58,382 bases of DNA from a virus. The DNA is taken from positions 1 through 58,382 of the IMG/VR virus record IMGVR_UViG_3300009158_000057; one strand, given 5' to 3'. Shown piece by piece: positions 35,276-58,382 of the stretch; the stretch's first letter is position 1, and each line of letters begins with the position of its first letter. A program made the position numbers and the translations under genes. The notes beneath the pieces were generated by a model, which saw only the letters and a list, made by a program, of their open reading frames with translations, searched no databases and was not told where the DNA came from.

Positions 35276-35299
35276 GTTAATCTCCATTTTCATTCTATT

Positions 35300-35307: not shown

Positions 35308-35308
35308 T

Positions 35309-36928: not shown

Positions 36929-36949
36929 AATAATGTCCTAACTTTTACT

Positions 36950-37501
36950 TTAAGATCCACCAGCGCGACCAGTGACGCCGCCTGTAACTTCCCAATAGTC
37001 ATATAAGAATGTAACTCTAAACTCTTCGATACGATCTGTTGCATCCCAGTCTAGGTCAATTGCTTGAATATCTGCGGGATAGATCCCGTAGAATGTGTAC
37101 TCACGAATAGGAACGCCTGTCTTTGAGAACTGAGTTACCGTTGCGTTTGACTTGTATAGCAGAGGTGAAGCAGAACCGAATGAACGTAAGTTGCCTTCTA
37201 GTGAGTTGATCTTGTTTGACCACTCTTCCATTGCATTACGGATTAGGAAGTCTTCATCGTTGATGACTGTTACGCCCCAATCTGCGAATGTACGATCACC
37301 AGCTAGATTGATCTTACGACCGAAGTAGCCGATTGTGATGTTGCCTAGCTTTGACTCTGGAAGCTGTGCAGTGCGTACCATGAATGGCACTTTGATGTTA
37401 CCAGTTCCATTTGCAGGATTGTTAAATTGCACCTGGAATAGCGACTGTCTTGCACCGCCACCTGTTAGTTGTGACTTAATTTCGTTGATATTGAAAGCCA
37501 T
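36950..37501 (-). CDS. 19: Tail tube protein, gp19
   Basis: gp19 polymerises into the inner tube of the contractile tail. The 183-aa protein (T4: 163) has MAFNINEIKSQLTGGGARQS, the conserved KVPFMVRTAQLPESKLG and FADWGVTVINDEDF motifs, and the C-terminal FLYDYWEVTG typical of T4-like tubes. It follows the sheath gene gp18 with a 30-base gap holding a late-promoter variant. Confidence 0.95.
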   Translation of the reverse strand: MAFNINEIKSQLTGGGARQSLFQVQFNNPANGTGNIKVPFMVRTAQLPESKLGNITIGYFGRKINLAGDRTFADWGVTVINDEDFLIRNAMEEWSNKINSLEGNLRSFGSASPLLYKSNATVTQFSKTGVPIREYTFYGIYPADIQAIDLDWDATDRIEEFRVTFLYDYWEVTGGVTGRAGGS

Positions 37502-37522
37502 GTTTGTTTCTCCTTGTCCTTT

Positions 37523-37530
37523 TATTTATC
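37523..37530 (-). promoter_or_regulatory. Probable late promoter variant for gp19
   Basis: The minus strand reads GATAAATA (one mismatch to TATAAATA) 22 bases before the gp19 ATG, followed by AAGGAG. The position is right for a late promoter, but the first base departs from consensus. Confidence 0.45.
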
Positions 37531-39555
37531 TTAGAATTTGCCTACGATTTCGGAGAATTCAACACCAGTTCTAACAGCAACAAAGTTTAGCTGGATGAAG
37601 TTGATTGAACGTGCAGGCTTAATGTAGATATCGCCTACAAAACGGTTGCCGTCAATTACTTCTCCTGTGTTGTTTGTCTCATCGCACACTACCTTGAAGT
37701 CATAGATGCCACGACGGCCCTGGATGTCCTTCAAGAATGGTGTAACGAGTGATACGAACTGTGACCGAGTGAAAGCATCGTTGAATTCAAATAGTGTGAA
37801 TTTAGAAGCAGTCGCAATGGCCTTTTCTAGGACAATGAAGAGTCTACGCACGTTGATACGATCAAAGGCAGAAGGTTTGGCGAGAAGAGTCTTGTCGCCG
37901 TATAGAATTGTGCCTTGACCAGGGAATGTAACAACTGGGTTGACGCCAGCAGGATAGAGAACGTCACGATCAGCTTGCTTCGGATTGTATGCAAGCTTAA
38001 TGATGTTCTTGATCTGACCGCGATTAAAGCCAGCAGGAGACCACCATGGATCTCTCTGAGTGTCTGTAACAACGCAAAGACCGGCAACGTCACCGTTTAG
38101 AGGCACCCAACGATAGATATCATTGTACTTGTCATACTGATACTTATAGCCAGAGTCTAAGACAGCATATGAAGTGCTTCTTAGATTATTGCGGAAAGTA
38201 GTAACTGCACTTAGTTCGCTGCCGACATTGTTAACAACGTCTGTGTTTTGAGGAGATACGAATACAACGCAGTCCTTTCTAACGTTAGCAACATTGTCGA
38301 TGAGATAGTTGGCTAGCTGTGTGCCGTTTGTACCAGCAGTCTTACCAGCCATGACTAGAGCAACATCAACATTTTCTGTTGAAGCGAATAGATCATAAGC
38401 ATTTGTAATATTGCCAATATATGTGCCGACTGTTGCCTCATCAAAGCCGTCATTACCGCCTTGGAACGATAGTGATAGCGGCGTTGCAGTTGCAGTTGTA
38501 GCAATGTTAATTGCAGTGTTGACGCTGTAGCCGCTACGGTGGTTTGTCCACCAGAGATACTGTGAACTCTGATTTAGAACGTTGACGTAGTAGTTTGTAG
38601 AGCCGTCTTGTGTCTTGGCATCTGTAGCACGTGATAAGCCCTGATAGACTTCTAGAATCGTGCCAGGAACGCCTGTGAACTTACCATCTTGGTCAGAAAC
38701 AACAGCGTGAACTTCATCTACTGCGGCAGTGTTGCCGAAGCTGGTGTTGTAGTCTGATGAGCCAGGAGCTTTATCGACTGACTGGAAGTATTCCCAGTTA
38801 CGAGTAATTGTACCAGACATTGATACGCTGGATGATAGCGTATAAGTGCTTGACAAGTTAACTGTAAAGGTATTGCCTGTTGGTGTTGATGCGGGCTTTG
38901 CAGCAACTTGAACATACTGATAGCCAACAATTGTGTTGCCAACATATAGATAGTCGCCAACAGTTAGTGCTTGATAAGCAGCGTTTGATCTTACGTAGCT
39001 GCCAGAGTCATCAAAGGTGATGACCATTGAGTTGCCAGAGAATGTTGTAGTGGCAACGTTAGCTAGTGAAGACTGATACTGTGTAGCGTTATCGCAAACA
39101 GATAGCTTTAGTGTGTTGCCTAGATCACCAGGATATTTTGCAACATATAGGATCTGAGTGTTTGAGGCAAAGTTATTGGCAGTCAACTTTTGATCATAAT
39201 CGTCTGCGTTCTTAACGTTAAGAATAGCATTGAATGTGTAGCTGGCGGTATTTGCAACAGCGCTCCATGTGCCAATTGTATTAGCAGAACTTGTTGTATT
39301 TGCTGCACGGCTAACATATAGCGCATTGCCATATGAAAGAAAGTTTGCTGCTGTGAAAAAAGTCTCAGCATTTAGATTTGTTGGCTTGCCGAAACGATTT
39401 ACGAGCGAAGCTTCTGAATCGACTAGGACCAGCTTACCTACTGGACCCCAACGAAATAAACCGCCAATACCGCCAGTGGTTGTAGAAACCGCTGGAACGA
39501 TAGTTGTTAGGTCAATTTCGCTTACATTTACGCCTGGGCTTACTTGGAATGACAT
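37531..39555 (-). CDS. 18: Contractile tail sheath protein, gp18
   Basis: gp18 forms the sheath that contracts to drive the tube into the cell. The 674-aa protein (T4: 659) starts SFQVSPGVNVSEIDLTT, has a variable beta-rich middle (residues 100-330) typical of surface-exposed sheath domains, and a C-terminal core with RRLFIVLEKAIATASKFTLFEFNDAFTRS and the GVEFSEIVGKF end. A late promoter precedes it at 39611-39618. Confidence 0.96.
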   Translation of the reverse strand: MSFQVSPGVNVSEIDLTTIVPAVSTTTGGIGGLFRWGPVGKLVLVDSEASLVNRFGKPTNLNAETFFTAANFLSYGNALYVSRAANTTSSANTIGTWSAVANTASYTFNAILNVKNADDYDQKLTANNFASNTQILYVAKYPGDLGNTLKLSVCDNATQYQSSLANVATTTFSGNSMVITFDDSGSYVRSNAAYQALTVGDYLYVGNTIVGYQYVQVAAKPASTPTGNTFTVNLSSTYTLSSSVSMSGTITRNWEYFQSVDKAPGSSDYNTSFGNTAAVDEVHAVVSDQDGKFTGVPGTILEVYQGLSRATDAKTQDGSTNYYVNVLNQSSQYLWWTNHRSGYSVNTAINIATTATATPLSLSFQGGNDGFDEATVGTYIGNITNAYDLFASTENVDVALVMAGKTAGTNGTQLANYLIDNVANVRKDCVVFVSPQNTDVVNNVGSELSAVTTFRNNLRSTSYAVLDSGYKYQYDKYNDIYRWVPLNGDVAGLCVVTDTQRDPWWSPAGFNRGQIKNIIKLAYNPKQADRDVLYPAGVNPVVTFPGQGTILYGDKTLLAKPSAFDRINVRRLFIVLEKAIATASKFTLFEFNDAFTRSQFVSLVTPFLKDIQGRRGIYDFKVVCDETNNTGEVIDGNRFVGDIYIKPARSINFIQLNFVAVRTGVEFSEIVGKF

Positions 39556-44883: not shown

Positions 44884-46830
44884 TTATCCGTTAGAGTTTT
44901 TTAGTTTATCTACTTCTGCCGCTAATACGTTGATAGCAGCAAAAGCAACAGCGACAAGTTTTAGATAATCAACGCCTAGTGTACCGTCTGGTTTAACTCT
45001 TGTAGCAACTGGGAACGCAGCAAGTACGTCTTGAGCAATAACGCCGAAGTCAGATTTCTGTCTGTAGTAAGCGTCTGCGCCGCCATGCTTTTCAAGATAC
45101 TCGTCTGTCCAATCAAACGTTTTACCGCCAATTGCAGCTACAATAGCTAAAGCATTTTGAATATCTTGAATATTTTCTTTTAATGAAATGTCAGAGCCGT
45201 TGTACGCAACAATGTTACCTGAAGCACCGATGTCACCGTTGACTTGAATACTGGCGTTGAATGTGCCGCCGCCGAAAGGATTACCTGAAGAACCAGTGTC
45301 GCCCTTAGATCCTGTGTAACCAATGCCGCCTGCCCCACCATTAGAGCCGTTGCTGCCATCAGAACCTCTAGAGCCAGTGTAACCGATAGGTCCTTGAATA
45401 CCCTGTGAGCCACCACCACCTTGAGAGCCAGTGTACCCGATAACACCTTGAGAACCTGTGTCGCCTTTAGAGCCTGTATAACCGATGCTGCCTTGTGAAC
45501 CAACAGAACCATTATAACCAGTCGAGCCAGTGTCGCCCTTTGAGCCATTATAACCAGTGGAGCCCTGTGAGCCTGTGTAACCAATTGAACCAGTATAGCC
45601 AATAGAGCCAGTTGCACCGACAGAGCCAGTGTAGCCAGTGGGTCCTTGATTGCCTACTGAGCCGCCGTAACCTACGCCAACAGAACCAGTATAGCCTAGT
45701 GAACCAGTATAGCCAAGAGAGCCTGTAGCGCCAACAGAGCCGTTGTAGCCAGTAGAGCCAGTTGCGCCGACAGAGCCACCGTAGCCGATAGAGCCAGTAT
45801 AACCGATGGGCCCTTGATTGCCTACTGAGCCGTTGTAGCCTACAGAACCACTATAACCAATGCTGCCAGTGTAGCCGATAGGACCTTGAGAACCAGTATA
45901 GCCAGTGCCACCCAAAGAGCCTGTATAACCCTGTGGACCAACAAGTGACGTTGCCCAGTAGAGAGATGTGCCGTTTGTAGAAAGAACTTGGCCTGATGTT
46001 CCAGGGCCGCTATTCGCAATAATAGCTACGCCAGCATTGAAGATGACGTTAGCAGCATGAGTTAGCTGGCCAGAAAGAGTGTAGTCTGAGCTAGTTGTCA
46101 CATAGTTTGTAGGTGTAACGCCATTTAGATATGAAGCGTTGTTTGCTGTACCTGAAAATGCAGTCGAGTTAATCGAAGTGTTGACAGAAGAGTTGCCAAT
46201 GACTAGACTGGAAGTACTGATATAGACATTAGAACCAACAGTAACATTGGCAGAAGCAGCTACAGTCGTGCCAGAGACGTTACCAGTATGAATACCAGTC
46301 GTATTAGCAGTTACAGTAGTAGCATAGACGTTAGTTGTGATAACGTTAGAGGACGCATTTATAGTTGTAGCAACAACGTTGCCGAACAGCGTAGGTGTAA
46401 ATACGTTAGCTGACGCATTGACTACAGAAGCAGAAACGTTACCAGTATGAATACCAGTTGTGTTTGCTGTTACTGTTGTTGCGTAGACGTTAACTGTGAT
46501 GACATTAGCTGCGGCATTGATAGTCGTAGCATACACATTAGTCGTAATGACGTTTGAAGACGCATTGACCGTGATGCTGACTGTGTTGCCGTAGAATACG
46601 GGAGATGTTACGTTAGCAGATGCGTTGACAAAGCCAGTGACAGTAGTGTTGCCTGCCGCGAAGGTAGTCGTTACAACTGCTGGACCTTGAACGTTAGCTG
46701 AACCAACAATCGTTAGCGCGGCATCTGGAGAGGCTGTATTAACACCGACTTTGCCATTGTTCGCAAACAATAGATTGGTGTTAACTGTTAGCCCATTTTT
46801 TACAACAAATGAAGAATTACTACTAGCCAT
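44884..46830 (-). CDS. Collagen-like tail fibre with C-terminal S74 chaperone, 648 aa
   Basis: Four parts are visible. Residues 1-270 form Asn/Val/Thr-rich repeats (SSNVITTNVYATTVTANTTG units), a beta-prism-like shaft. Residues about 280-520 are collagen-like triplets with GYTGS as main motif. A short linker follows. The last about 110 residues (SDISLKENIQDIQNALAIV, then DFGVIAQDVLAAFP) are a peptidase S74 intramolecular chaperone, which trims itself after trimerisation. The collagen part is almost proline-free, with Thr, Ser and Lys in the Y position. Interruptions (GVGYGGS) break strict periodicity. It probably forms a host-recognising fibre. Confidence 0.9.
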   Translation of the reverse strand: MASSNSSFVVKNGLTVNTNLLFANNGKVGVNTASPDAALTIVGSANVQGPAVVTTTFAAGNTTVTGFVNASANVTSPVFYGNTVSITVNASSNVITTNVYATTINAAANVITVNVYATTVTANTTGIHTGNVSASVVNASANVFTPTLFGNVVATTINASSNVITTNVYATTVTANTTGIHTGNVSGTTVAASANVTVGSNVYISTSSLVIGNSSVNTSINSTAFSGTANNASYLNGVTPTNYVTTSSDYTLSGQLTHAANVIFNAGVAIIANSGPGTSGQVLSTNGTSLYWATSLVGPQGYTGSLGGTGYTGSQGPIGYTGSIGYSGSVGYNGSVGNQGPIGYTGSIGYGGSVGATGSTGYNGSVGATGSLGYTGSLGYTGSVGVGYGGSVGNQGPTGYTGSVGATGSIGYTGSIGYTGSQGSTGYNGSKGDTGSTGYNGSVGSQGSIGYTGSKGDTGSQGVIGYTGSQGGGGSQGIQGPIGYTGSRGSDGSNGSNGGAGGIGYTGSKGDTGSSGNPFGGGTFNASIQVNGDIGASGNIVAYNGSDISLKENIQDIQNALAIVAAIGGKTFDWTDEYLEKHGGADAYYRQKSDFGVIAQDVLAAFPVATRVKPDGTLGVDYLKLVAVAFAAINVLAAEVDKLKNSNG

Positions 46831-46868: not shown

Positions 46869-46876
46869 TATTTATG
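46869..46876 (-). promoter_or_regulatory. Possible late promoter variant for the S74 fibre
   Basis: The minus strand reads CATAAATA, one mismatch to the late consensus, 39 bases before the fibre ATG and overlapping the stop of the glycosyltransferase gene. Position fits, consensus is imperfect. Confidence 0.4.
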
Positions 46877-47891
46877 TTTGTTCTACCGCAACCTCTGGAA
46901 CTACTTCTTGAGTTGGTTCTACTGCTACTTCAGCAACTTCTGCTGGAATCTCTTCTACTGGCTCAGGCCCGCCGCCAAGAGTAATCGTATACGTCTTGGC
47001 TTTCTCTTCTAGACACTGATTAATGTAATCAACACCAGAGTACTCGCGGTACTCTTCTAGGACAGCATCATCTAAATTAGCAATAAACTGTTTTAGATAC
47101 TGATGCGACTTGTAGATTCTTTCGCCTAGAACATGCTCTGGAATAACAGGCTGAACACTCTGCTTTGTGATGTAGCCGTGAGTGCCTAGAAAGTGATAAC
47201 AGTGCATTGATCTAGGATGATACATGTGATAGCCAGCAGCAAAAGAAGATAGCGTTAGAATTTGTTCCTCACCCTCAAAGAAGATGTACGGATCAACGCC
47301 GACTTGTTTTATCCAAGAAGCAGGGAACATAGTATTACCTGCACAGATATGAATTGCAGGCATAACATCGTCTGTCGGTGAAATGTGATCTCCGTGAGCA
47401 GAGACGATATCGCAGTCTGCACGATAATCAAAGTATCGTACTCGACACGTTAGCTTCATGTCTTCTAATTGCTTGGTTGCTTTACCGTCAAGAAATTCCC
47501 AGTTCTTACAGCTTCCAGTGATGATGATTTTACCATCATTGTGCTTTTCATTTGCTTTTCTGTAATCATTGATGAGTTTTCTATCCCAACCCTTATCAAA
47601 CAACATATGTGAGTCGATCTGATACAGAAAGTCTTCATCTTTCATCTGAAGAGAATTAACATGTCGAGCAAAGCCAACGCCATAAGAATACTCAGGATTA
47701 ATCCTCATGTATCTAATATTTCTCTGAGCGATAAGATCGGGCGCTAACACTTCTAAGCTATCAGCAGCTACAGTCTGCTCAAAGACGCCGACAGTGATTT
47801 CGTGCCTACCAGACGCACTTTCTAGAATACTATCTATTGTTAGCTTTAAAAGAGGATCTCTGTACGAGACAATGCTTACAAATATTTTCAT
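46872..47891 (-). CDS. Glycosyltransferase, GT60-like (GlcNAc transferase type), 339 aa
   Basis: The protein begins KIFVSIVSYRDPLLKLTIDS, has YGVGFARHVNSLQMKDEDF, then YQIDSHMLFDKGWD with Asp93-Ser-His95 as metal motif, and a HGDHISPTDDVMPAIHICAG block. This resembles the GlcNAc-transferase family known from the Skp1 hydroxyproline-modifying enzyme (CAZy GT60). The last 35 residues are Glu/Val/Pro-rich and disordered. It lies directly beside a collagen-like fibre, and a prolyl-hydroxylase-like gene is encoded nearby, so it may glycosylate a hydroxylated fibre. The acceptor is inferred. Confidence 0.78.
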   Translation of the reverse strand: MKIFVSIVSYRDPLLKLTIDSILESASGRHEITVGVFEQTVAADSLEVLAPDLIAQRNIRYMRINPEYSYGVGFARHVNSLQMKDEDFLYQIDSHMLFDKGWDRKLINDYRKANEKHNDGKIIITGSCKNWEFLDGKATKQLEDMKLTCRVRYFDYRADCDIVSAHGDHISPTDDVMPAIHICAGNTMFPASWIKQVGVDPYIFFEGEEQILTLSSFAAGYHMYHPRSMHCYHFLGTHGYITKQSVQPVIPEHVLGERIYKSHQYLKQFIANLDDAVLEEYREYSGVDYINQCLEEKAKTYTITLGGGPEPVEEIPAEVAEVAVEPTQEVVPEVAVEQT

Positions 47892-47897
47892 AATTTC

Positions 47898-48704
47898 CTA
47901 CTTCTTGAATTTTTCATTGTCTGGTAAATCATCTAAATCGGATTCTGGATCTTCCACTACGTTTTGTTCAGAGTTGCCGTCGTGCAGTTTTAATCCCATA
48001 GGCTTTTTATTTAAAATATATTTTCTATAAAATTGTTTTGCACTTGAGAAAATAGTATTTGTGTAATCAAATTGTTCTGGTGTTGCTGGTCCATAACCAC
48101 CCGTAATGCCATCTTTAATATGAAGAAAGGGCATCACTTGATACAATGGTGTACCGGCTTTGATAGTAAAATTGCATTTTCTCTTAATTGAGAAAATAAA
48201 ATTCATAGAAGAATAATTGTTATAATCAACAATACCCGGATAAACAAAGATATCATCTAGAAAAGGAGCATGATATGTTGCTGGTAAAAACACCATGGAC
48301 ATTCCTGGCTTATGAGAAACAACATGCCATGGAGATTCAATATGCCACACTTGAAAAGGAATATTATCTTGAGGCGTAAATATTCCAGCTCCTATTTCAT
48401 TAGACATTTTCCTTGGAGGTGGAAAATGTGATTGTCTGCCAGTGCCCATTGTTACCATAACGCCAGACTCATTAGCCATAATGTTGATATCATCCCAAGC
48501 AGGAATAATGTATCCGTAGTTTTTTAAATCTACCATTCCTGGGCATTGAGCAAAATCAAGTTTACCAGTACTCTTTACTTGCTTATCACCAAAGTGTACT
48601 TTAACTTGTGCTGCTTTTTCAACAGGATGCATCAGATATGCTTTTCGAGAGCAATCTACAAATAATACATCTTTTTCTTTTTTCTTCAGGAAATTAAACA
48701 TCAT
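47898..48704 (-). CDS. Unknown protein, paralogue of 48701-49426, 268 aa
   Basis: I cannot name the family with certainty; it may belong to a DUF6065-like group of beta-rich proteins. By eye it is a divergent paralogue of the next gene: both share a C-P/M-x-x-D...G(Y/F)IIP...D core, a PG-x-S-x-x-FLP motif, a G-(I/L)VD motif and a late AGTPL turn. The N-terminus is basic (FLKKKEKD) and the C-terminus acidic. The pair is co-translated by an ATGA overlap and sits between the glycosyltransferase and the hydroxylase-like gene. Confidence 0.65.
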   Translation of the reverse strand: MMFNFLKKKEKDVLFVDCSRKAYLMHPVEKAAQVKVHFGDKQVKSTGKLDFAQCPGMVDLKNYGYIIPAWDDINIMANESGVMVTMGTGRQSHFPPPRKMSNEIGAGIFTPQDNIPFQVWHIESPWHVVSHKPGMSMVFLPATYHAPFLDDIFVYPGIVDYNNYSSMNFIFSIKRKCNFTIKAGTPLYQVMPFLHIKDGITGGYGPATPEQFDYTNTIFSSAKQFYRKYILNKKPMGLKLHDGNSEQNVVEDPESDLDDLPDNEKFKK

Positions 48705-49426
48705 TTTCTAGGTTCCCTCAATTCATTAGTATAATAACTTAATCTAGAACCTTGAATAATTTGCATCTTCTCAATTTCTTTAGCTTCTTTGGCTTTCATC
48801 TTTCTAATTTTTGGAAATCTATCAAAAGAATTTCTCTTAATAGGAATAGCAGTCACTAGAGGAGTACCAGCACGTAGTACGTCATCAAAATTGCCTGTAT
48901 GCCAGATAGCTGGAAAGTTAACTTCCTTTGGATATCTATCTGTGTCTACAAGACCGCCGAGACAAGTGAAGTTTGGATTAAATGCGTTGATTGGCGGAAG
49001 AAACAAAGTAGACCAGCCAGGCGCAGTTTTAATTACCCAATAGTTGATAAACTTGATTGCGTCTGCATCACGGAAACCACCAATTTGATCTTTGTTATGA
49101 AACTCAGCAAGACCCATATTTGGTGGATTTGTGACTTTAATAATGCTTCTATCAATGTTTGTGTGTACACCAAGATCGCCCTGTAGGGGAATAATAAATC
49201 CCAAAGAATGTACGTCTAAAAGGGGCATACATTTCTTTGAAGTCCATGGTTTACCACCAAACGGATCTCTTGGCGCATCATCAATATATGGGGGAACTTT
49301 TTTCCACCAGTCTGGAATTTTTCTATTTGCCGGTACTGGTTCTGGGATAACACCTTCCCATCTAGGATGACAATAAAATTCTATTACTTCATTACGAAAT
49401 AACAGTTTCAAATCTTTGAGTTTCAT
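48701..49426 (-). CDS. Unknown protein, paralogue of 47898-48704, 241 aa
   Basis: It starts with LKDLKLLFRNEVIEFYCHPR, then PANRKIPDWWKKVPPYIDDA; the LGFIIPLQGDLGV, PGWSTLFLP and RAGTPLVTAIPI stretches align with the preceding paralogue. The alternation of short strands and Pro/Gly turns suggests a cupin-like or double-stranded beta-helix fold, which would fit an oxygenase-like or sugar-binding role, but no iron ligand triad can be seen. It is part of the modification cassette by position. Confidence 0.65.
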   Translation of the reverse strand: MKLKDLKLLFRNEVIEFYCHPRWEGVIPEPVPANRKIPDWWKKVPPYIDDAPRDPFGGKPWTSKKCMPLLDVHSLGFIIPLQGDLGVHTNIDRSIIKVTNPPNMGLAEFHNKDQIGGFRDADAIKFINYWVIKTAPGWSTLFLPPINAFNPNFTCLGGLVDTDRYPKEVNFPAIWHTGNFDDVLRAGTPLVTAIPIKRNSFDRFPKIRKMKAKEAKEIEKMQIIQGSRLSYYTNELREPRK

Positions 49427-49432
49427 AATATA

Positions 49433-50032
49433 TTACTCTCTTTCGCCCTCAATCCAGAATACAATTGTCTTTCTGGTTCCTTTGGTTACTGGTTTAACTC
49501 TATGTGGAAACATTGAAGAAAAGAATACAACGTCACCAGCATTTCCTTTGATGATCTCTGTACGATCTGGACTGCCAGTAGTCATGATTTCTAGCTCGCC
49601 GCCTTCATACTCGTCTGGATTATTTAGGAACATTACGCCGCTAATTTTTCTTTCGAAGTTATGCCAAGCAGGAAATACGTCAATATGCCAGTCGTAATGG
49701 CCGTTGTTTTTAGCTTTGTATATTGTATATTGAAAAGGAGAAAGCCCTGCAATATTAAGCATAAAATGATCATAATTGATTCTAGGAATAAAATTTGCAA
49801 TTTTTTCAAAAATCCAACCAGAATTTTCATCTGGCATAAAATTTGAAACATCACAACTTCTTACTTCTGGAGATTCTTGTGCTTGACCAATACCAATGCC
49901 TATAACTCCCTTTTCAAACTTCATGATCTTTTCAAGAAAAACAATTTTTTCTATCTCATCAGAACTAAACATCTCATTACATACACAAAATTTATTAAAA
50001 ATAGCGCCAATTTTATTCACTCTCAAAGTCAT
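49433..50032 (-). CDS. 2OG-Fe(II) oxygenase, prolyl-4-hydroxylase-like, 199 aa
   Basis: The start at 50032 follows AGGAG; the open frame to 50050 would overlap the upstream gene. The double-stranded beta-helix core has H116-x-D118 (YDWHIDVF), H177 (MFPHRVK) and Arg187 (KGTRKTIVFW) as 2-oxoglutarate ligand, with EYEGGELEIM and GDVVFFSS strands. This is a canonical P4H/PiuC-type active site. The substrate is unknown; its place between repeat-fibre genes and beside a GT60-like glycosyltransferase suggests hydroxylation of fibre residues, as an inference. Confidence 0.88.
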   Translation of the reverse strand: MTLRVNKIGAIFNKFCVCNEMFSSDEIEKIVFLEKIMKFEKGVIGIGIGQAQESPEVRSCDVSNFMPDENSGWIFEKIANFIPRINYDHFMLNIAGLSPFQYTIYKAKNNGHYDWHIDVFPAWHNFERKISGVMFLNNPDEYEGGELEIMTTGSPDRTEIIKGNAGDVVFFSSMFPHRVKPVTKGTRKTIVFWIEGERE

Positions 50033-50046
50033 GCTAATTCTCCTGT

Positions 50047-50739
50047 TCAATCAAATGTTATATTTTTACTCGCAAAAAATGCATAGTCTGTTGCATAATA
50101 GGCTTTAATTGCTGAAATCTCTTCTGGAGTTAAATCTGCGACATTTACATGTTTAACTGATACGTTATCTCTACGCAATTCTTTATAGCTAATACCTAAC
50201 GCATCTGTTACTTTTCTTACTTCATTATTTATATCACGAAAATCAAGCAATGTCAAATTAGGATGGTCTAACCAATGTGTTTGATTATGAAAAACTCCGA
50301 GTCTCGCAAAGACTTTTTCTTTTGGATCATCGCGTAATTGTGTCAATACAGTAATAAAATCTGTTATCGAAAGTCTATATTGATGATTGTTCCATGTTAT
50401 GCCTTGTGCGATTACATTCACAGCATCGGCTTCTGGAACTGAAACATTATGGAATTTCTCATACATAAACAACAAAATAGGACTGTTGTAATATCCTTTA
50501 AATCCGCCATCTGAATTCAGTTCAAAGAGGCACATGTGATTATACGCAGAAACAAATTTTTCTATAGGATTTCTATAAAAACAAAATAAAGCATAATCTG
50601 TTTCTTCTGTTAGAACAGAATGTCTAATGTCGTGATAACAAACATCTAGACCAGAGTCTTTGTATGTATTATAGATTGAAGTCCCGCCAGTTTTGGGATT
50701 AAAATACAGAATTGTTTTATTGCTATTAGATATTAACAT
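50047..50739 (-). CDS. Sulfotransferase-like protein, 230 aa
   Basis: Sulfotransferases move sulfate from PAPS to hydroxyl or amine groups. The 5'-phosphosulfate loop is FNPKTGGTSIY (13-23, Lys16), and the 3'-phosphate site is CFYRNPIEKFVSAYNH (Arg56, Ser64), the order and spacing of the Sulfotransfer_2 family. A probable catalytic His lies in YHDIRH (about 35-40). No signal peptide or transmembrane segment, so it acts in the cytoplasm. It overlaps the next gene by 7 bases. The targets may be tyrosines or glycans on the phage fibres, an inference from location. Confidence 0.85.
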   Translation of the reverse strand: MLISNSNKTILYFNPKTGGTSIYNTYKDSGLDVCYHDIRHSVLTEETDYALFCFYRNPIEKFVSAYNHMCLFELNSDGGFKGYYNSPILLFMYEKFHNVSVPEADAVNVIAQGITWNNHQYRLSITDFITVLTQLRDDPKEKVFARLGVFHNQTHWLDHPNLTLLDFRDINNEVRKVTDALGISYKELRRDNVSVKHVNVADLTPEEISAIKAYYATDYAFFASKNITFD

Positions 50740-51488
50740 TTTTCTGCTACCACAAAAATAACTGTGTTTGTAGTTAAATTTTTAATCTCTATTCTACCAG
50801 TATATTCTGGATTATTGATAATGTCAAAAATATATCTATCTTCATTTATTTTAAATTGTTTATTTCGTGGAAGATTAAATGGAATTATCATTTTTTCGCT
50901 AGTTGTATCTAGTACAATAGATGTATTGGCATCTAGGTTGCAATATTTAGCTGTGTATGTTTCATTTCTTTTTATTGCAATGAAAAATGTTTCCGCTGCT
51001 TCTTGCTTTGGAATAGCCACTTCCACGTTCATTGATGTTGTCATCCAATCTCGTTTAACATCAATCCATGTGTTATTTGCTGATGGTTCCGCTGTGATAT
51101 GCACAACAAATTTATTGTCAAGTTCTTCATAGTCATACAAATCTGGATTATCAATAGAATCAATGTAATTTGTTATTCTATTTTTTTCGTCTCTTGATGC
51201 ATCATCGACAGGATTGTAATCGTATGTGATATCTGTTTTGCCAGATAAAACAATAAACATCTTATTATTTACATTTTGAAATGTATTCAAATAAAAGCTG
51301 TCTAACATTCCATTGGCACATTTCATGTATCTTGTGTTGGTAGCAGCATCATCAACGGCGCACACTGTATTCTCATTAGAGTTTATTAGTTGTATTACAT
51401 GTGGATGATCGTGCCCAGCTCCAATACCCACTTTCTGGCGAAAAATAATTCCAGTTGGTTGTGTTGGCTGTGTAAATGGTCCTGGCAT
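50733..51488 (-). CDS. Hypothetical protein in the fibre cassette, 251 aa
   Basis: The N-terminus (GPFTQPTQPTGIIFRQKVGI) is Pro/Thr-rich, then beta-rich segments follow (KMFIVLSGKTDITYDYNP, WIDVKRDWMTTSMNVEVAIP, GRIEIKNLTTNTVIFVVAEK). No motif is recognised. It may be a fibre adaptor or a head domain for the octapeptide-repeat protein that precedes it in the genome (51495-53048), with which it is spaced by 6 bases. A virion role is likely but unproven. Confidence 0.6.
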   Translation of the reverse strand: MPGPFTQPTQPTGIIFRQKVGIGAGHDHPHVIQLINSNENTVCAVDDAATNTRYMKCANGMLDSFYLNTFQNVNNKMFIVLSGKTDITYDYNPVDDASRDEKNRITNYIDSIDNPDLYDYEELDNKFVVHITAEPSANNTWIDVKRDWMTTSMNVEVAIPKQEAAETFFIAIKRNETYTAKYCNLDANTSIVLDTTSEKMIIPFNLPRNKQFKINEDRYIFDIINNPEYTGRIEIKNLTTNTVIFVVAEKC

Positions 51489-51494
51489 AGTAAA

Positions 51495-53048
51495 TTACCT
51501 TGATCTTACGGTGACAGAACCACCGGTACCTACAGTTACAGGATAAGTTGCTCCGTCTGGATAGCTATACTGAGACACTGTAGTTGCTGGCGTGTATGCA
51601 CCAGGCTGTGCAGGAGAGTTACTTGCTGCTGCGCCCGCTGCATTGACACCCAATGCACCAGAACTGTTGCCCGCATTTGCTGCATTGTATGTTGCGATTG
51701 TATTTACGTTGAACGAGGCAATGTTATTGACGTTATATGTAGCAATGTTATTGACGTTATACGATGCTGCGTTCTGTGTGTTGTATGTTGCAATGTTTTT
51801 AGCGTTATATGTTGCAATATTTTGCGTATTGTATGTTGCAGGATTCTGAGAGTTATAGTTAGCATTGTTTACGTTGTATGATGCTGCGTTCTGTGCGTTG
51901 TATGCCGCAATGTTTTTAGCGTTATATGTTGCAATATTCTGAGGATTGTATGTTGCGGCATTTTGTGCGTTATATGTTGCTGGATTTTGTGCGTTATATG
52001 TTGCTGGATTTTGTGCGTTATACGATGCTGGATTTTGTGCGTTATATGCTGAAATGTTCTGAGAGTTATATGACGCAGGATTCTGCGGATTAAAACCAGA
52101 CACGGCATAGTTTGCGTTGCTGGCATTGTATGACGCAACGTTTTGTGCGTTAAAGCCATCAACGTTTTGCGGATTAAATCCATATACAGCGTAGTTTGGA
52201 TTGTTGCCATATCCAGTACAAGAATAGTTTCGTACATAAAATTGATAACCAAAACCAATTTCATAAAATGCAGGGCAGTCGGGCTGGGCATTCTGAGTGC
52301 CGTTTTGGAAAAAAGTCATATAGAAAAATTGAATTCTGTCGAATGATGTAACTTCCCAGTTGTAGTTATATGCATTATACGGATTGAACCCACTTACATC
52401 GTAGTTTGGATTATTTGAGTTGTAGTTTGCATTACTAGCATTATACGATGCGGCATTCTGCGGATTAAAACCAGACACGGCATAGTTTGGATTGCTGGCA
52501 TTGTATGACGCAGGATTTTGTGCGTTATATGCTGATACGTTCTGAGCATTGTATGACGCTACGTTCTGAGCATTGTATGACGCTACGTTCTGAGCATTGT
52601 ATGACGCTACGTTCTGAGCATTGTATGACGCTACGTTCTGAGCATTGTATGAAGCAATGTTGTTTACGTTGTAGTTAGCATTGTTTACGTTGTATGACGC
52701 TACGTTCTGAGCATTATATGCTGCGATACTTTGAGCATTGTATGTTGCAACAGTCTGAGCATTGTATGAAGCAATGTTGTTTACGTTGTAGTTAGCATTG
52801 TTTACGTTGTATGATGCTACGGTTTGAGCATTATATGACGCTACGTTCTGAGCATTGTATGTTGCGGCATTTTGTGCGTTATATGTTGCAATGTTGCCGA
52901 CAGTGTTTTGTCCACCAACGGCAGCTACGTCCATATCATATCTGCCGTAAGGCAGAGTTATGTTACTGGGAGCGTTAAAGATTTGAGTGCCAGTACCTGA
53001 AGCTCTCCAAGTCTTTTCTAACTCAAAGTTTTTTGTCTTATTGCTCAT
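51495..53048 (-). CDS. Octapeptide-repeat protein, Tyr/Asn-rich, 517 aa
   Basis: The N-terminal 51 residues are non-repetitive, ending GRYDMDVAAVGGQN. Residues 52-228 and 284-458 are about 43 tandem 8-residue units of the form (A/S)-(S/T)-Y-N-(A/V)-(Q/N)-(N/T)-(V/I/A/P), giving continuous Tyr and Asn ladders. An aromatic, Cys-containing insert (residues 229-283, WEVTSFDRIQFFYMTFFQNG, then PDCPAFYEIGFGYQF) interrupts them. The C-terminal 59 residues are Gly/Ala-rich and end in GTGGSVTVRSR. Length, bias and position between fibres point to a structural adhesin, perhaps a beta-solenoid. I know no named family for it. Confidence 0.85.
   Translation of the reverse strand: MSNKTKNFELEKTWRASGTGTQIFNAPSNITLPYGRYDMDVAAVGGQNTVGNIATYNAQNAATYNAQNVASYNAQTVASYNVNNANYNVNNIASYNAQTVATYNAQSIAAYNAQNVASYNVNNANYNVNNIASYNAQNVASYNAQNVASYNAQNVASYNAQNVASYNAQNVSAYNAQNPASYNASNPNYAVSGFNPQNAASYNASNANYNSNNPNYDVSGFNPYNAYNYNWEVTSFDRIQFFYMTFFQNGTQNAQPDCPAFYEIGFGYQFYVRNYSCTGYGNNPNYAVYGFNPQNVDGFNAQNVASYNASNANYAVSGFNPQNPASYNSQNISAYNAQNPASYNAQNPATYNAQNPATYNAQNAATYNPQNIATYNAKNIAAYNAQNAASYNVNNANYNSQNPATYNTQNIATYNAKNIATYNTQNAASYNVNNIATYNVNNIASFNVNTIATYNAANAGNSSGALGVNAAGAAASNSPAQPGAYTPATTVSQYSYPDGATYPVTVGTGGSVTVRSR
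52537..52652. repeat. Tandem 24-bp DNA repeat inside the octapeptide gene
   Basis: Four perfect copies of a 24-base unit (52537-52560, 52561-52584, 52585-52608, 52609-52632) are followed by 20 matching bases of a fifth. The unit encodes one SYNAQNVA octapeptide. Perfect DNA identity, not just protein similarity, implies recent slippage or unequal recombination. Confidence 0.9.
52638..52814. repeat. Dispersed 60-bp direct repeat in the octapeptide gene
   Basis: Positions 52638-52697 and 52755-52814 are identical over 60 bases, separated by 57 bases. Each copy encodes a variant block with an NVNNANYNVNNIA sequence. It is a segmental duplication within the repeat tract. Confidence 0.88.
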
Positions 53049-53063: not shown

Positions 53064-56000
53064 TTACGATGCGTTTTTCACTGCAAGAGATACGATCCAA
53101 GTTGTCCCGCCGTTATATGTAAGTACTGACCAAATGTCAACGCCGTTTGCTGTCGTTGTAGCCGGAGGAGATACTGCCCCTGCATACTTAGAGCCTGCAG
53201 GCCAAGTGATTGTTCTGCCACCAGTTGCGTCTTGTGTTGCAATGATAGTGAACGCAAAGGCACGACCAGATGGTGCGTTAGAGAACGTGAATGTTGTGTT
53301 GCCTGTCATTGACAAGTTGAACATGTTGCTTGTTGACAAGTCTAGTGTCACAGCACCAGTTGAGCTTGAGTTAGCACAGAACTCTGATGTTGCTTTGAAG
53401 ACTGGAGCAATCAAGTGATTGTTGCCCAGTGCAACGTTTGCACTAGCAGTGAACGCCGTTGTATTAATAACGAATGTTGAGCCTACTGTGTGTGAAGCAG
53501 CATTGACAACACCAGAGTGATAAACACCAGTTGTGTTTGCTGTAAAGTTAGTAGCGTTATACGATACAGCATTGACACCAGCAGAGCCAGTTGAGTATTG
53601 ACCAGTGGTATTTGCAATCCAAGAAGAACCAACTGTAAACGAAGCAGCATTAATTCTACCTGTGTGCCAGATGCCCGTGTCGTTAGCAGAAAGTACAGGA
53701 TTGACTGTTGTGTTTGCCTGCGTTAGAGTTGTGGCAGTGATAACAGTATTGACTGTGCTATTTGAGCTTACGAGATATGCTGTTGTGTTAGCTTGTAGCA
53801 AGCTACCGACGTTAGCAGAAGTCGTTGCATAGAATGTTGCTGTGTTGACTTGACCGCTTACGTTTGCATACTGTGCTGATACGTTAGCAGTTACAGTAGT
53901 AGCGCCGACAGTAATAGCAACAACGTTAGCAGTTACAGTAGTAGCGCCGACAGTAATAGCAACAACGTTAGCAGTTACAGTAGTAGCGCCGACAGTAGTG
54001 GCAACAACGTTACCAGTATGAATACCAGTTGTATTAGCAGTTACAGTAGTAGCATAAACGTTTGTTGTAATAACGTTAGAAGATGCATTAATTGTTGTAG
54101 CAAAAACGCCAGTTGTGTTAGCTACCAAACTAGTGCCAACGCTGTATGACGTAGCATTGATTGCGCCATTAACGTTTAGTGTATTAGCTGAGAAGTCAAA
54201 CGTTAATCCATTGTTGCCTACTAGTACGCCGTTAGCGTTGTAGATAACTTGAGTGTTAGAGCTTGCAGCACCAGCAGAACCAGTGTAACCAATTACACCT
54301 TGAGAGCCAGTGTAACCAATAGAGCCAGTATAGCCACTGGCGCCGAATGAACCACCGTAACCAGTGTCACCCTTAGAACCAGTGTAACCAGTAGAACCGT
54401 TGTAGCCAGTAGAGCCTGTATCACCCTTTGAGCCAGTGTAACCAATAACGCCTTGAGAGCCTGTGTAACCCACAGAGCCATCATAGCCCCTAGAGCCTGT
54501 GTAACCAATGTCGCCCTTAGAGCCTGTGTAACCAATGTCGCCCATATCACCAGTTCTTGTGAATGTAATAATTGTATCAAGACTATTGCTAAAAGATGTT
54601 GCGCCGTTTAGCCACGCAACAGGAACTTGAAAGTAATCTGACGGATGACTATGTGAGCCAGTGATTGAAAAATACGCAAAGTTTTGTGTGTTTGCCTTTT
54701 CTTCAAGTTTAAATGTGCCTTTAATTGATGAAGTAGAATCATCGATAGTGTTTAGATAATTGAAACAGTTTGCAGAAGCATAGTCTAAGAAATCAATATA
54801 AAGTGTTGTTGCTACCGACAAGTCGGTGTTACTAAATTTGAGATAACCAGCAGTTGGATCTGAATTTGTTGTATTTGTGCTATAGTAATACTCGAATGTA
54901 GCGCCACCAAATTCGCCTTGTGGACCCTTAGAACCAGTGTAACCAAACGAGCCATTGTAGCCTGTATCGCCCTTAGAACCAGTATAACCAATAGAGCCAG
55001 TATAACCAGTAGAGCCAAATGAACCGTCGTAACCAGTGTTACCCTTAGAACCAGTATAACCAATAGAGCCAGTATAACCAGTAGCGCCAAATGAACCGTC
55101 GTAACCAGTGGAGCCCTGTGAGCCTGTGTAACCAATTGAACCAGTATAGCCAATAGAGCCAGTATACCCTAATGATCCAGTGTAACCGAATGAACCATCA
55201 TAGCCTCTTGAGCCAGTATAGCCAATGTCGCCCTTAGAACCAGTGTAGCCGATGCTGCCATCGTAACCAGTGTTACCAAAAGAGCCATCATAGCCTCTCG
55301 AACCGCCATATCCTAGTGAACCAGTGTAACCAGTTGCGCCGAATGAGCCACCATAACCGAACGAGCCAGTATAGCCGATGCTGCCTGTATAGCCAAATGA
55401 ACCGTCGTAGCCTGTGTTGCCCTTAGATCCATTGTATCCAGTGTCGCCCTTAGAGCCAGTGTAACCAAACGAGCCATCATAGCCAGTTAATCCAGTATCA
55501 CCCTTAGAGCCTGTGTAACCAATGTCGCCTTTTGAGCCATTGTATCCAGTATCACCCTTAGAGCCTGTGTAACCAATGTCGCCTTTTGAGCCAGTATAAC
55601 CAATTACACCTTGAGAGCCTGTGTAACCAAAAGAGCCATTGTATCCAGTGTCGCCCTTAGAGCCAGTGTAACCGAATGAACCATCATAGCCCGTATCGCC
55701 CTTAGAGCCAGTGTAACCAATAACGCCTTGATTACCCTGAGAACCAGTGTAACCAATAGAACCTGTATACCCGATTACGCCCTGAGAGCCGTTATAGCCA
55801 GTTGCGCCTTGTGAACCAGTGTAACCAATATTACCTTGCGAACCCTGAGAGCCAGTGTAACCAATAACGCCTTGAGAGCCGCCGTAGCCTAGTGAACCAG
55901 TGTAACCGATAGAGCCTGTATCGCCCTTAGAGCCAGTGTAACCAAACGAGCCATTGTAGCCTGTATCGCCCTTAGATCCTTGATAGCCAGTGTCGCCAAT

Positions 56001-56474
56001 GTCACCGGTTCTTGCAAATGAGACAATAGATAGAGTGTTGTTAGCTAGAGTTGTTCTGCCCGAAAGCCACGCAATTGGAACTTGGAAATAAGGACCAGTA
56101 CCCTCATGGTGAGCGCCAACAATAGAGAATGTAGCAAAGCTTGAGTTATTGCCTGCAATGCTTAATGTAAAATGACCTTTAACTACAGAAGTAGAATCGT
56201 CAATTGTCGTTAAGAAGTTATATACGTTTGCGCTAGTAGCATCAGTAAAATTGATATAAAGAGTATTAGCAGAGCTAAATGATGTATTATTAAATGCTAG
56301 ATATCCAGCAGTGGGATCAGTATTGGAAGTAGGTGTGATATAGTTATAGCTATACGCTTCGCCGCCCAAACCGCCTTGTTCGCCTCTAGATCCAGTGTAG
56401 CCTGTATCGCCCTTAGAGCCAGTGTAGCCTACAAAGGATCCGGATAATAGATCACTTAAATTGGTCGTTGTCAT
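53064..56474 (-). CDS. Long collagen-like fibre protein, 1136 aa
   Basis: The N-terminus is MTTTNLSDLLSGSFVGYTGS. Two copies of a ~125-residue beta domain (SNTDPTAGYLAFNNTSF and NSDPTAGYLKFSNTDLSV; both followed by TIDDSTS and FQVP(I/V)AWL) are set in a collagen-like scaffold of GYTGS/GYNGS/GYDGS triplets, with large blocks about 165-560 and 690-760. Residues about 775-1010 are Asn/Thr/Val-rich repeats including the 14-aa VAITVGATTVTAN unit, shared with the S74 fibre. The C-terminal ~110 residues form a beta domain (SSSTGAVTLDLSTSNMF, TGGRTITWPAGSKYAG). Proline is very scarce; Thr/Lys/Asp sit in Y and X positions. The protein is probably a long trimeric fibre. Confidence 0.88.
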   Translation of the reverse strand: MTTTNLSDLLSGSFVGYTGSKGDTGYTGSRGEQGGLGGEAYSYNYITPTSNTDPTAGYLAFNNTSFSSANTLYINFTDATSANVYNFLTTIDDSTSVVKGHFTLSIAGNNSSFATFSIVGAHHEGTGPYFQVPIAWLSGRTTLANNTLSIVSFARTGDIGDTGYQGSKGDTGYNGSFGYTGSKGDTGSIGYTGSLGYGGSQGVIGYTGSQGSQGNIGYTGSQGATGYNGSQGVIGYTGSIGYTGSQGNQGVIGYTGSKGDTGYDGSFGYTGSKGDTGYNGSFGYTGSQGVIGYTGSKGDIGYTGSKGDTGYNGSKGDIGYTGSKGDTGLTGYDGSFGYTGSKGDTGYNGSKGNTGYDGSFGYTGSIGYTGSFGYGGSFGATGYTGSLGYGGSRGYDGSFGNTGYDGSIGYTGSKGDIGYTGSRGYDGSFGYTGSLGYTGSIGYTGSIGYTGSQGSTGYDGSFGATGYTGSIGYTGSKGNTGYDGSFGSTGYTGSIGYTGSKGDTGYNGSFGYTGSKGPQGEFGGATFEYYYSTNTTNSDPTAGYLKFSNTDLSVATTLYIDFLDYASANCFNYLNTIDDSTSSIKGTFKLEEKANTQNFAYFSITGSHSHPSDYFQVPVAWLNGATSFSNSLDTIITFTRTGDMGDIGYTGSKGDIGYTGSRGYDGSVGYTGSQGVIGYTGSKGDTGSTGYNGSTGYTGSKGDTGYGGSFGASGYTGSIGYTGSQGVIGYTGSAGAASSNTQVIYNANGVLVGNNGLTFDFSANTLNVNGAINATSYSVGTSLVANTTGVFATTINASSNVITTNVYATTVTANTTGIHTGNVVATTVGATTVTANVVAITVGATTVTANVVAITVGATTVTANVSAQYANVSGQVNTATFYATTSANVGSLLQANTTAYLVSSNSTVNTVITATTLTQANTTVNPVLSANDTGIWHTGRINAASFTVGSSWIANTTGQYSTGSAGVNAVSYNATNFTANTTGVYHSGVVNAASHTVGSTFVINTTAFTASANVALGNNHLIAPVFKATSEFCANSSSTGAVTLDLSTSNMFNLSMTGNTTFTFSNAPSGRAFAFTIIATQDATGGRTITWPAGSKYAGAVSPPATTTANGVDIWSVLTYNGGTTWIVSLAVKNAS
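53881..54006. repeat. Three tandem 42-bp DNA repeats
   Basis: Copies at 53881-53922, 53923-53964 and 53965-54006 (the last with two changes) each encode a 14-residue VAITVGATTVTANV-like unit of the long fibre. The DNA identity indicates recent expansion, as in the octapeptide gene. Confidence 0.9.
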
Positions 56475-56521: not shown

Positions 56522-56529
56522 TATTTATA
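56522..56529 (-). promoter_or_regulatory. T4-type late promoter for the long fibre
   Basis: The minus strand reads TATAAATA about 48 bases before the ATG at 56474, just after the stop of the upstream fibre gene. It is an exact match to the consensus, consistent with late expression of the long fibre. Confidence 0.8.
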
Positions 56530-56541: not shown

Positions 56542-58382
56542 TTAATAAGATCCTAATGATATTCTTTTCCATGTGTTTGTTGCGACACAAACATAAAGAT
56601 AAGAAGTATCATACGCAAGTTGCCCTGCTATTCCTGTTGCAGTTGACACTGGAGATGCAGATTGACCATAAGCGGCGCCAATAGAACCAGTATACCCTAT
56701 GCCAATTGAGCCAGTGTAGCCGATGCTGCCAGTATAGCCAGTAGAACCTAATGAGCCAGAGTAACCTCTTGTGCCTGTAGATGTTGCAACTTCCCATGTG
56801 GTGCCGCTATAGATGAACTCTACTTTAGCGTTTGTAATGTTGATTACAAGATCAGTTGCAGAACCGTCAATTGTGCTACCGTTTCTCGCAACTGTTAGTG
56901 CATTGACAGCAAAATAATTGCCAGCATCTACAATAGCAACATAATTTCCTGACGTAGGTGAAGCAGGTAAAGTTACAGTGAATGAACCACCGCTGGTGTC
57001 TGCCATCACACCGTCAAGATTAGACGCTGTATAGTTTGCAGTTTTGTTTACCCATGTAATACCGAAGCCTGCATTGCCCTTAGAGCCAGAGTAACCTCTT
57101 GTGCCTGTAGATGTTGCAACTTGCCAGACTGTACCATCCCAAACAAATTCTACTTTTGCATTGTGAATGTTAAGACTGATGCTGCTGAAGCCACCCTCAA
57201 TGTTATTGCCGTTGCCGCCAACAGTTAGAGGATTTACTGACCAGTCGCCATCGTCTAAAACAACTACGTAGTTGCCTACAGTGGGCGTTGCAGGAAGTAA
57301 TAACGTCCATGAACCGCCAGTTGTGTCAGCAATAATGCCGTCTAGATTAGATGTTGTATAGTTTGCACTCTTGTTCAGCCAATTCACGCCGTTGCCGGCA
57401 GCACCTTGAGAACCAGAATAACCTATAGAGCCTGTATAGCCAGCAGAGCCAGCAGAGCCGACTGAACCATTGTAACCAGTTGAACCCTGATCGCCTTTAG
57501 AGCCAGAGTAGCCTATGCTGCCTGTGTAGCCAACTGAACCGTTATATCCAGTAGAGCCATTGTAGCCGTTATTTCCATCAGTGCCTCTAGAGCCTGTGTA
57601 GCCAACAGAGCCAGTGTAGCCAAACGAGCCTTGATAACCTAGATTGCCTTGATCGCCCTTTGAGCCTGTGTACCCAATAGAGCCAGTAGCGCCAACTGAG
57701 CCGTCATAGCCAGTAGAGCCAATGTCACCCTTTGAGCCAGAGTAACCAACAGAACCATCATAGCCTCTAGAGCCGTTATAGCCAGTTGCGCCAGTAGAAC
57801 CGACAGAGCCGCCGTAGCCTAGTGAACCAGTGTAGCCAATAATGCCCTGTGAACCGACAGAGCCATTATAGCCAACAGAGCCAGCATAGCCTAGTGAACC
57901 AGTGTAGCCAATAACGCCTTGTGAACCGACAGAGCCGCCGTAGCCGATGCTGCCTGTATAGCCAATAGAGCCAGTCGCGCCAACTGAGCCGTCATAGCCA
58001 GTAGCGCCTGTATCGCCCTTTGAGCCGCTGTAGCCAATAGAGCCATTATAACCAGTTGAACCGTTATAGCCTACGCCAATAGAACCAGTATAACCAATAG
58101 AGCCAGTTGCGCCTACAGAACCATTATAACCAGTCGAGCCTGTATCGCCTTTAGAACCAGAGTAACCAATAGAGCCGATGCTGCCTTGTGAACCAGTGTA
58201 ACCAACTGAACCGTTATAGCCAACTGAACCGTTATAGCCAGTAGCGCCTGTTGCGCCAACTGAGCCGTTGTAACCAACTGAACCGTTATAGCCTACGCCA
58301 ATAGAACCAGTATAACCAACTGAACCGTTATAGCCTACGCCAATAGAACCAGTATAACCAACTGAACCGTTATAGCCAGTAG
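56542..58382 (-). CDS. Collagen-like fibre protein, 5' end outside the window (613 codons seen)
   Basis: The frame is open from the right window edge; the first GTG at 57387 is internal, since the in-frame upstream sequence reads as G-Y-T-G-S triplets. At least 330 residues of collagen-like repeats (GYTGS, GYNGS, GVGYNGS) are followed by two copies of a ~90-residue beta domain (NWLNKSANYTTSNLDGIIAD and WVNKTANYTASNLDGVMAD, both ending VATSTGTRGYSGS) and a short C-terminal domain (ASPVSTATGIAGQLAYDTSY, then WKRISLGSY). It is the second fibre of the same design, probably making a composite fibre with 53064-56474. Confidence 0.85.
   Translation of the reverse strand, partial: TGYNGSVGYTGSIGVGYNGSVGYTGSIGVGYNGSVGYNGSVGATGATGYNGSVGYNGSVGYTGSQGSIGSIGYSGSKGDTGSTGYNGSVGATGSIGYTGSIGVGYNGSTGYNGSIGYSGSKGDTGATGYDGSVGATGSIGYTGSIGYGGSVGSQGVIGYTGSLGYAGSVGYNGSVGSQGIIGYTGSLGYGGSVGSTGATGYNGSRGYDGSVGYSGSKGDIGSTGYDGSVGATGSIGYTGSKGDQGNLGYQGSFGYTGSVGYTGSRGTDGNNGYNGSTGYNGSVGYTGSIGYSGSKGDQGSTGYNGSVGSAGSAGYTGSIGYSGSQGAAGNGVNWLNKSANYTTSNLDGIIADTTGGSWTLLLPATPTVGNYVVVLDDGDWSVNPLTVGGNGNNIEGGFSSISLNIHNAKVEFVWDGTVWQVATSTGTRGYSGSKGNAGFGITWVNKTANYTASNLDGVMADTSGGSFTVTLPASPTSGNYVAIVDAGNYFAVNALTVARNGSTIDGSATDLVINITNAKVEFIYSGTTWEVATSTGTRGYSGSLGSTGYTGSIGYTGSIGIGYTGSIGAAYGQSASPVSTATGIAGQLAYDTSYLYVCVATNTWKRISLGSY

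Follow-up and report, generated by a model that had tools for sequence, protein, structure and literature searches.

What does a T4-like phage do with a 2-oxoglutarate (2OG)-dependent oxygenase, two DUF6065 proteins, and a GT60-family glycosyltransferase that are encoded in a row among its fiber genes? The question is raised by IMG/VR virus record IMGVR_UViG_3300009158_000057, a 58.4-kb fragment of a T4-like myovirus, whose whole stretch of 58,382 nucleotides (referred to as the window here) was analyzed. Its terminase has 56% identity to the terminases of cyanophages and of methylophage Melnitz, and T4-type head, portal, sheath, neck, polymerase, and helicase genes were found in it. An earlier sequence-only reading had proposed that the phage hydroxylates, glycosylates, and sulfates its own fibers, the collagen-like ones included. 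On balance, we lean toward a late cassette that would make and chemically decorate a virion repeat fiber or adhesin; the partnership of the enzymes with this protein is well supported by comparison of related loci, whereas the chemistry is what we infer from the gene identities. This retains the idea of a phage modifying its own fiber, through a hydroxylase/GT60 cassette tied to a fiber-type gene, and moves the target from the collagens to the repeat protein.

Conservation and layout of the gene block

Relatives were taken from IMG/VR by GT60 and DUF6065 searches and annotated with custom profiles (loci are given as L followed by a number). Among 53 distinct genes for the first DUF6065 protein (DUF6065a), 51 adjoin the oxygenase gene, and 51 adjoin the gene of the second DUF6065 protein (DUF6065b). 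Where enough upstream sequence was available, a repeat-type protein was encoded upstream of the oxygenase in 47 of 49 cases, usually directly before it, so that the order in these loci is repeat protein, oxygenase, DUF6065a, and DUF6065b, mostly followed by GT60. A gene order conserved over approximately 50 distinct viral loci lies far beyond chance. For the reverse search, a consensus-like single sequence of the N-terminal domain of the repeat protein served as the query, and the oxygenase came next in 36/36 repeat protein genes having downstream sequence; given that many of these contigs were already in the first set, the result mainly tests exclusivity and serves less as an independent sample. 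The neighborhood survey proposed by the sequence-only reading provides strong comparative support for a fiber-modifying cassette. Homologs distant from fiber genes, which that reading had named as the sign that would speak against it, were encountered as distant single DUF6065 genes and remote GT60s but not as blocks.

The block is embedded among tail or fiber genes, and its flanks vary: L009 has baseplate genes there, L058 has neck genes, and L029 has a giant fiber of 2470 amino acids (aa). Since the flanking genes change, the block behaves as a unit. In L006 to L014 (except L009 and L010), GT60 and an extra oxygenase gene lie together ahead of a further copy of the repeat gene. In L007 and L014, this extra oxygenase (9426 to 10001 in both) has Ala or Ser replacing the second iron-binding His, and because of this replacement it may lack activity or serve as a helper in this clade. 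L078 has an additional oxygenase-DUF6065a pair (13651 to 16864), which is encoded in the opposite orientation and follows the gene for a collagen-like protein rich in Gly and Asn (445 aa, truncated where the contig stops). When bacterial and archaeal genomes were scanned, one 4.4-kb contig was found in a Chitinophagaceae metagenome-assembled genome, too short for host assignment.

In the window, the operon runs on the minus strand. Its leading gene encodes a collagen-like tail fiber of 1136 aa (53064 to 56474) and is followed by the gene of an octapeptide-repeat protein of 517 aa (51495 to 53048; the YN-repeat protein, our proposed substrate), an unclassified 251-aa protein that only near relatives have (50733 to 51488), a sulfotransferase (50047 to 50739), the PiuC/PKHD-like 2OG-Fe(II) oxygenase (49433 to 50050), DUF6065a (48701 to 49426), DUF6065b (47898 to 48704), GT60 (46872 to 47891), and a collagen-like fiber with a C-terminal S74 chaperone domain (44884 to 46830). 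A further collagen-like fiber lies at 56542 to 57387. The five open reading frames (ORFs) from the sulfotransferase to GT60 are all on the minus strand, with neighbors overlapping by 4 bases or separated by 6, and both they and the surrounding collagen-like and octapeptide-repeat genes are present where the sequence-only reading had placed them. An Rfam scan of the cassette region found no RNA. A T4-type late-promoter-like octamer, TATAAATA, is located on the minus strand at 56522 to 56529, 48 bases 5' of the ATG of the leading collagen-like fiber, the first gene after it. Sites of this type number 11 in the window versus 3.75 expected, a count reached by 0/100 shuffles, and other minus-strand sites stand before the major head, scaffold, and tail sheath genes. 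Amid the minus-strand structural genes, a plus-strand ORF (29013 to 29786) shows a match (phrog_133, 8e-12) to head maturation proteases of the ClpP type.

Identities of the cassette proteins

All three families expected from the sequence-only reading (GT60, PF13640, and Sulfotransfer_2) were matched in profile searches. The GT60 assignment, originally based on a DSH motif, was borne out by profile PF11397 (115.7 bits, cutoff of 21, E value of 4e-33) and phrog_24687 (1.5e-17); the DXD-like metal motif reads IDSH (residues 92 to 95), and its DSH at 93 to 95 is found in 9/9 relatives. The C-terminal tail of the protein is rich in Glu and Val.

The oxygenase starts with a TTG, or with an ATG six codons further on, and matches PF13640 (2OG-FeII_Oxy_3; E value of 1e-18) with an iron triad of H122, D124, and H183 plus R193. 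In collagen-type prolyl 4-hydroxylases, a Lys ten residues past the second His binds the 2OG carboxylate, whereas Arg193 of the cassette enzyme is nearly invariant among relatives. The HIF hydroxylase PHD2 likewise uses Arg at this position, so Arg193 is compatible with prolyl activity. The nearest solved relatives are PiuC and other PKHD hydroxylases, followed by prolyl hydroxylases of several organisms. Against the PiuC/PKHD equivalog (NF003974, PRK05467), the protein scores 65.9 bits, below the cutoff of 143, and is by sequence a relative of these hydroxylases, not a member of the equivalog. Its earlier description as P4H-like was correct as to the HxD...H...R motif, but the sequence is closer to PiuC/PKHD hydroxylases. 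Outside the fiber region, at 16431 to 18228, another 2OG oxygenase is encoded near a beta-glucosyl-HMC-alpha-glucosyltransferase-like gene (phrog_842, 4e-15), a pair with a possible role in DNA hypermodification.

The sulfotransferase passes the Pfam cutoff (PF03567, 27.8 bits, cutoff of 22; Sulfotransfer_2, 3e-6) and has both loops expected for binding of 3'-phosphoadenosine 5'-phosphosulfate, PKTGGTS and RNPIEKFVSA, in agreement with its first identification. Sulfotransferase-like genes recur in L004 (two), L016/17, L022, L170/171 (between oxygenase and DUF6065a), and L031 and L070 (downstream), and they differ from one another in position and family. The sulfotransferase is an optional cassette member, and sulfation, if real, is an optional cap. 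A tblastn search of ∼50,000 deposited phage records gave no match for GT60, the sulfotransferase, or part of the repeat protein.

The two paralogs of the sequence-only reading are indeed related to each other, as both match one PHROG family, phrog_7084 (2e-47 for DUF6065a and 3e-18 for DUF6065b). DUF6065a reaches 27.1 bits for DUF6065/PF19541 (cutoff of 26.6); DUF6065b, a diverged paralog with 19% identity to DUF6065a, matched no Pfam family by itself. To this paralogy we can add a predicted fold. With an AlphaFold2 model of DUF6065a (pLDDT of 75), the best PDB matches in Foldseek were dUTPases and dCTP deaminases (probability of 1.00, E value of 3e-4), with a query-normalized TM score of just 0.3 to 0.4, and a search of a viral structure library likewise pointed to a dUTPase/dCTP deaminase-like fold. 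The segment GLVDTDRY...AGTPLVTAIP fits the pattern of dUTPase motif III and what follows it. The phosphate-binding motif II of dUTPases (RSS or RSG) has as its counterpart a nonconserved loop, FLPPINAF in the window, with RSS in no relative; these loops were assigned by sequence pattern and not by residue-level structural alignment. The DUF6065 proteins gave no match to the dUTPase family PF00692, and sequence-profile searches with DUF6065 and with GT60 matched no solved structure. On a careful reading of the model, DUF6065a would have a dUTPase-like beta-clip fold without dUTPase chemistry. Residues common to all DUF6065 relatives are mostly Gly, Pro, or structural, and a Cys, C66, is invariant. 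Lone DUF6065 genes near thymidylate synthase or ribonucleotide reductase (RNR) genes were seen in haloarchaeal viruses and cyanophage S-RIM4 (L018, 7914 to 8798; L138, 7896 to 8768; L137, 7995 to 8789), possibly a nucleotide-related branch of the family. We found no papers on DUF6065 in the open-access literature.

The repeat protein and its proposed modification

The repeat protein of the window, which matched no Pfam or PHROG family, consists of an N-terminal domain (FELEKTWRASGTGTQIFNAPSNITLPYGRYD), a repeat stretch, a nonrepeat insert, and a conserved C-terminal end. Across relatives, the N-terminal domain follows the pattern [FL]xLEKTWRASGTGTTxFNxPGNxxIPYGR and resembles the start of Gly-rich phage adhesins, such as those of syn9, and the middle is built from tandem units of 7 to 19 residues whose sequence varies between phages. 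YN is the commonest shared dipeptide, with at least 4 copies in 38 of 39 dereplicated repeat proteins and an observed/expected ratio of 3.0, and Tyr/Phe-Asn is the sole near-universal mark of the repeat units. Most of the ∼46 [YF]N units in the stretch of the window are octapeptides (YNAQNVAS). Some YN-repeat proteins (L007, 5790 to 8006; L014, 5452 to 7782) have a Hint/intein-type domain at their C-terminal end, and the gene immediately after theirs encodes a further YN-repeat protein; the L007 domain matches Pfam Intein_splicing (7e-7) and Hint (4e-7), with an AXH-labeled overlap (9e-11); autocleavage or trans-ligation of the fiber by these ends is conceivable.

In L066, L070, and L078, Phe mostly takes the place of Tyr, and the enzymes are nevertheless conserved. 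Between L058 and L070, for example, the repeat motif changes from 97% Tyr to 76% Phe, while identity is 86% for the oxygenase, 84% for DUF6065a, and 71% for GT60. This wholesale exchange rules out Tyr as an obligatory target of the core enzymes; given that Tyr is swapped for Phe, the Tyr hydroxyl would be a less likely site than the Asn, or than the Ser/Thr/Asn often preceding the aromatic residue. Nor does a Skp1-type hydroxyproline-GlcNAc linkage, which the sequence-only reading cited as the known GT60 chemistry, agree with the repeats, since Pro is present in just 13 of the 46 window units compared with the near-universal Tyr/Phe-Asn.

The presence of GT60 varies together with this motif. 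GT60 is absent across the whole contigs of L017 (82 kb), L022, L033, L055, L170 (158.9 kb), and L171 (76.8 kb), an absence that is no proof because viral records may be incomplete. Repeat proteins in loci without GT60 contain 2 to 9 [YF]N, versus 8 to 66 in those with GT60 (Mann-Whitney P value of 1e-4, uncorrected for kinship). The repeat protein of L170/L171 is long and repetitive (SYTPGNPNPPNPG), yet it has just two [YF]N, and the long repeats of the 158.9-kb contig are devoid of the pair. On the DUF6065a tree, five GT60 changes are needed, and all informative pairs go in the expected direction. We read this distribution as suggesting that the oxygenase and the DUF6065 proteins act on the repeat protein generally and that GT60 acts where Tyr/Phe-Asn sites abound.

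In the mechanism that we propose, a repeat protein composed of a beta-type domain conserved at the N terminus, long Tyr/Phe-Asn tandem repeats, and a conserved C-terminal end would be made and then hydroxylated by the 2OG oxygenase. DUF6065a and DUF6065b, having probably lost nucleoside triphosphate hydrolysis, would assist the oxygenase as helper or binding proteins; GT60 would attach a sugar (probably GlcNAc) at many positions along the repeats, on or next to the Asn-containing motif, and in some phages sulfotransferases would cap the modified fiber. The outcome would be a densely hydroxylated and glycosylated fiber, with altered adsorption, solubility, or protection. A bolder version, which we offer tentatively and consider rather doubtful, is that the oxygenase, aided or guided by a repurposed dUTPase-fold pair, hydroxylates the Asn (or its neighbor) of the Tyr/Phe-Asn repeats for glycosylation by GT60, giving an extensin- or mucin-like glycofiber; the pathway would be widespread in phages, the hydroxylated and glycosylated residue would be of a new type, and the dUTPase fold would have a new function as a helper.

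Several points weigh against a modified repeat fiber. Chemistry is not readable from sequence. The link between GT60 and [YF]N rests on about five losses, repeat protein length differs as well, the [YF]N ranges touch (L052 has 8 [YF]N plus GT60), and a kinship-aware sign test, for which pairs were too few, gave a nonsignificant P value of 0.5. All loci without GT60 retain the oxygenase and DUF6065 genes; since these genes are kept even with few copies of the motif, the site of action of their products may lie elsewhere on the repeat protein. AlphaFold2 gave no usable structure of the repeat protein (pLDDT of 31). Finally, DUF6065 relatives adjoin genes for thymidylate synthase (HRTV-2) or RNR (HF1 and S-RIM4), which hints at nucleotide chemistry.

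The main target of the sequence-only reading, collagen-like fibers hydroxylated (at Pro or Lys) and glycosylated in the manner of mimivirus, is in our judgment unlikely. Collagen-like genes do flank the cassette of the window, and L076 to L091 have a second oxygenase-DUF6065a pair near a collagen-like or Gly/Asn-rich protein. However, such genes occur within 12 kb of the block in only about half of the relatives, and many of the relatives that carry the complete block lack one in reach, whereas the repeat protein is upstream almost invariably. As the repeat protein is the constant partner and collagens are often absent, the former is the likely substrate. Moreover, Pro occupies just 6/250 X and 1/250 Y sites in the Gly-X-Y triplets of the window collagens, which therefore all but lack the X-Pro-Gly pattern of collagen-type prolyl 4-hydroxylase substrates; with almost no Pro, collagen-type prolyl hydroxylation is unlikely, and hydroxyproline in these collagens was rejected. 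Slightly less improbable is that DUF6065a and DUF6065b are virion or assembly proteins (fiber chaperones or attachment parts), leaving only the oxygenase and GT60 as enzymes. They are always encoded directly behind a fiber-type gene, their shared residues are mostly structural, dUTPase motif II is absent, and dUTPase folds are typically trimeric; the invariant C66 and the nucleotide gene contexts, on the other hand, suggest ligand binding or catalysis.

Even less probable, to our mind, is a role in DNA modification, with the oxygenase hydroxylating a base or nucleotide, DUF6065 handling nucleotides, and GT60 glucosylating DNA. The dUTPase/dCTP deaminase-like fold of DUF6065a, the thymidylate synthase or RNR genes next to its halovirus and S-RIM4 relatives, and the presence in the window of another oxygenase beside a DNA-glucosyltransferase-like gene are in its favor. 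Yet the block lies in a late fiber operon tied to the repeat protein, the DNA-modification-like genes of the window lie apart at 16431 to 18228, dUTPase catalytic motif II is not conserved in DUF6065, and characterized GT60 enzymes act on polypeptides (PMC6939170). We give similarly little weight to the notion that these genes belong to auxiliary metabolism, with the oxygenase and the proteins encoded beside it tuning host 2-oxoglutarate or host surface glycans and not virion proteins. A 2OG/NtcA role of cyanophage 2OG oxygenases, as put forward by Sullivan et al. (2010; PMC3037559), would agree with it, but the fixed adjacency to a structural-type repeat gene, the late-promoter-like control, and the variation of GT60 with the repeat sequence would then be unexpected.

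Comparison with known systems

That viruses hydroxylate and glycosylate their own repetitive proteins, and that phage virions are glycosylated, is already known. In mimivirus, the lysyl hydroxylase/glucosyltransferase L230 and the collagen glucosyltransferase R699 act on the virus's own collagens (PMC9546862). The likeness is a virus-encoded 2OG oxygenase and glycosyltransferase for its own repetitive proteins, with the chemistry on the phage side inferred from genes; mimivirus differs in being a eukaryotic giant virus with collagen Lys as the target and other enzyme families, without DUF6065 or GT60, and with no co-linear cassette with a repeat gene shown. Mycobacteriophage virions are O-glycosylated on capsid or tail proteins by a phage-encoded glycosyltransferase (Freeman et al. 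2023, cited in PMC11652166), and that account includes no hydroxylase, repeat protein, or DUF6065. In the Skp1 pathway of Dictyostelium and Toxoplasma, the prolyl hydroxylase PhyA is followed by the GT60 enzyme Gnt1 (PMC6939170), so that a 2OG oxygenase and then a GT60 enzyme act on one polypeptide; there, however, the target is one Pro site on a cellular regulator, whereas the window repeats are sparse in Pro and share Tyr/Phe-Asn, and the cassette oxygenase has Arg at the 2OG-binding position of the collagen-type Lys.

The viral use of prolyl 4-hydroxylase has been termed cryptic (PMC9301287), and in T4-like phages of marine and fresh waters, 2OG oxygenase genes rank with the commonest of those that lack an explanation and are usually classed as auxiliary metabolism. 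By tying such an oxygenase to a named partner, the repeat protein, the cassette makes a virion modification role directly testable. It also gives DUF6065 a context, and the natural series of repeat sequences helps to locate the modified residue. If some phage fibers are glycoproteins, as they may be, this bears on host recognition and on the mass-spectrometric detection of virions. A YN-repeat protein combined with a PKHD-like oxygenase, a pair of DUF6065 proteins, and GT60 turned up neither in the open-access literature nor in deposited phage genomes.

Cyanophages syn9 (L135, 8903 to 13644, corresponding to syn9 32965 to 37706) and P-TIM40 (L136, 6927 to 11909) encode DUF6065 after a tandem pair of tryptophan halogenases and before several 2OG oxygenases, a second fiber-side enzyme cluster with DUF6065 that counts in favor of the proposed role, and Syn10 has a DUF6065 homolog with the same identity. 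As in the window, DUF6065 and 2OG oxygenases are encoded directly behind tail fiber genes in syn9 and P-TIM40, but with halogenases in place of GT60, one DUF6065 instead of two, and Gly-rich adhesins rather than YN repeats. The natural substrate of these halogenases may be a fiber protein.

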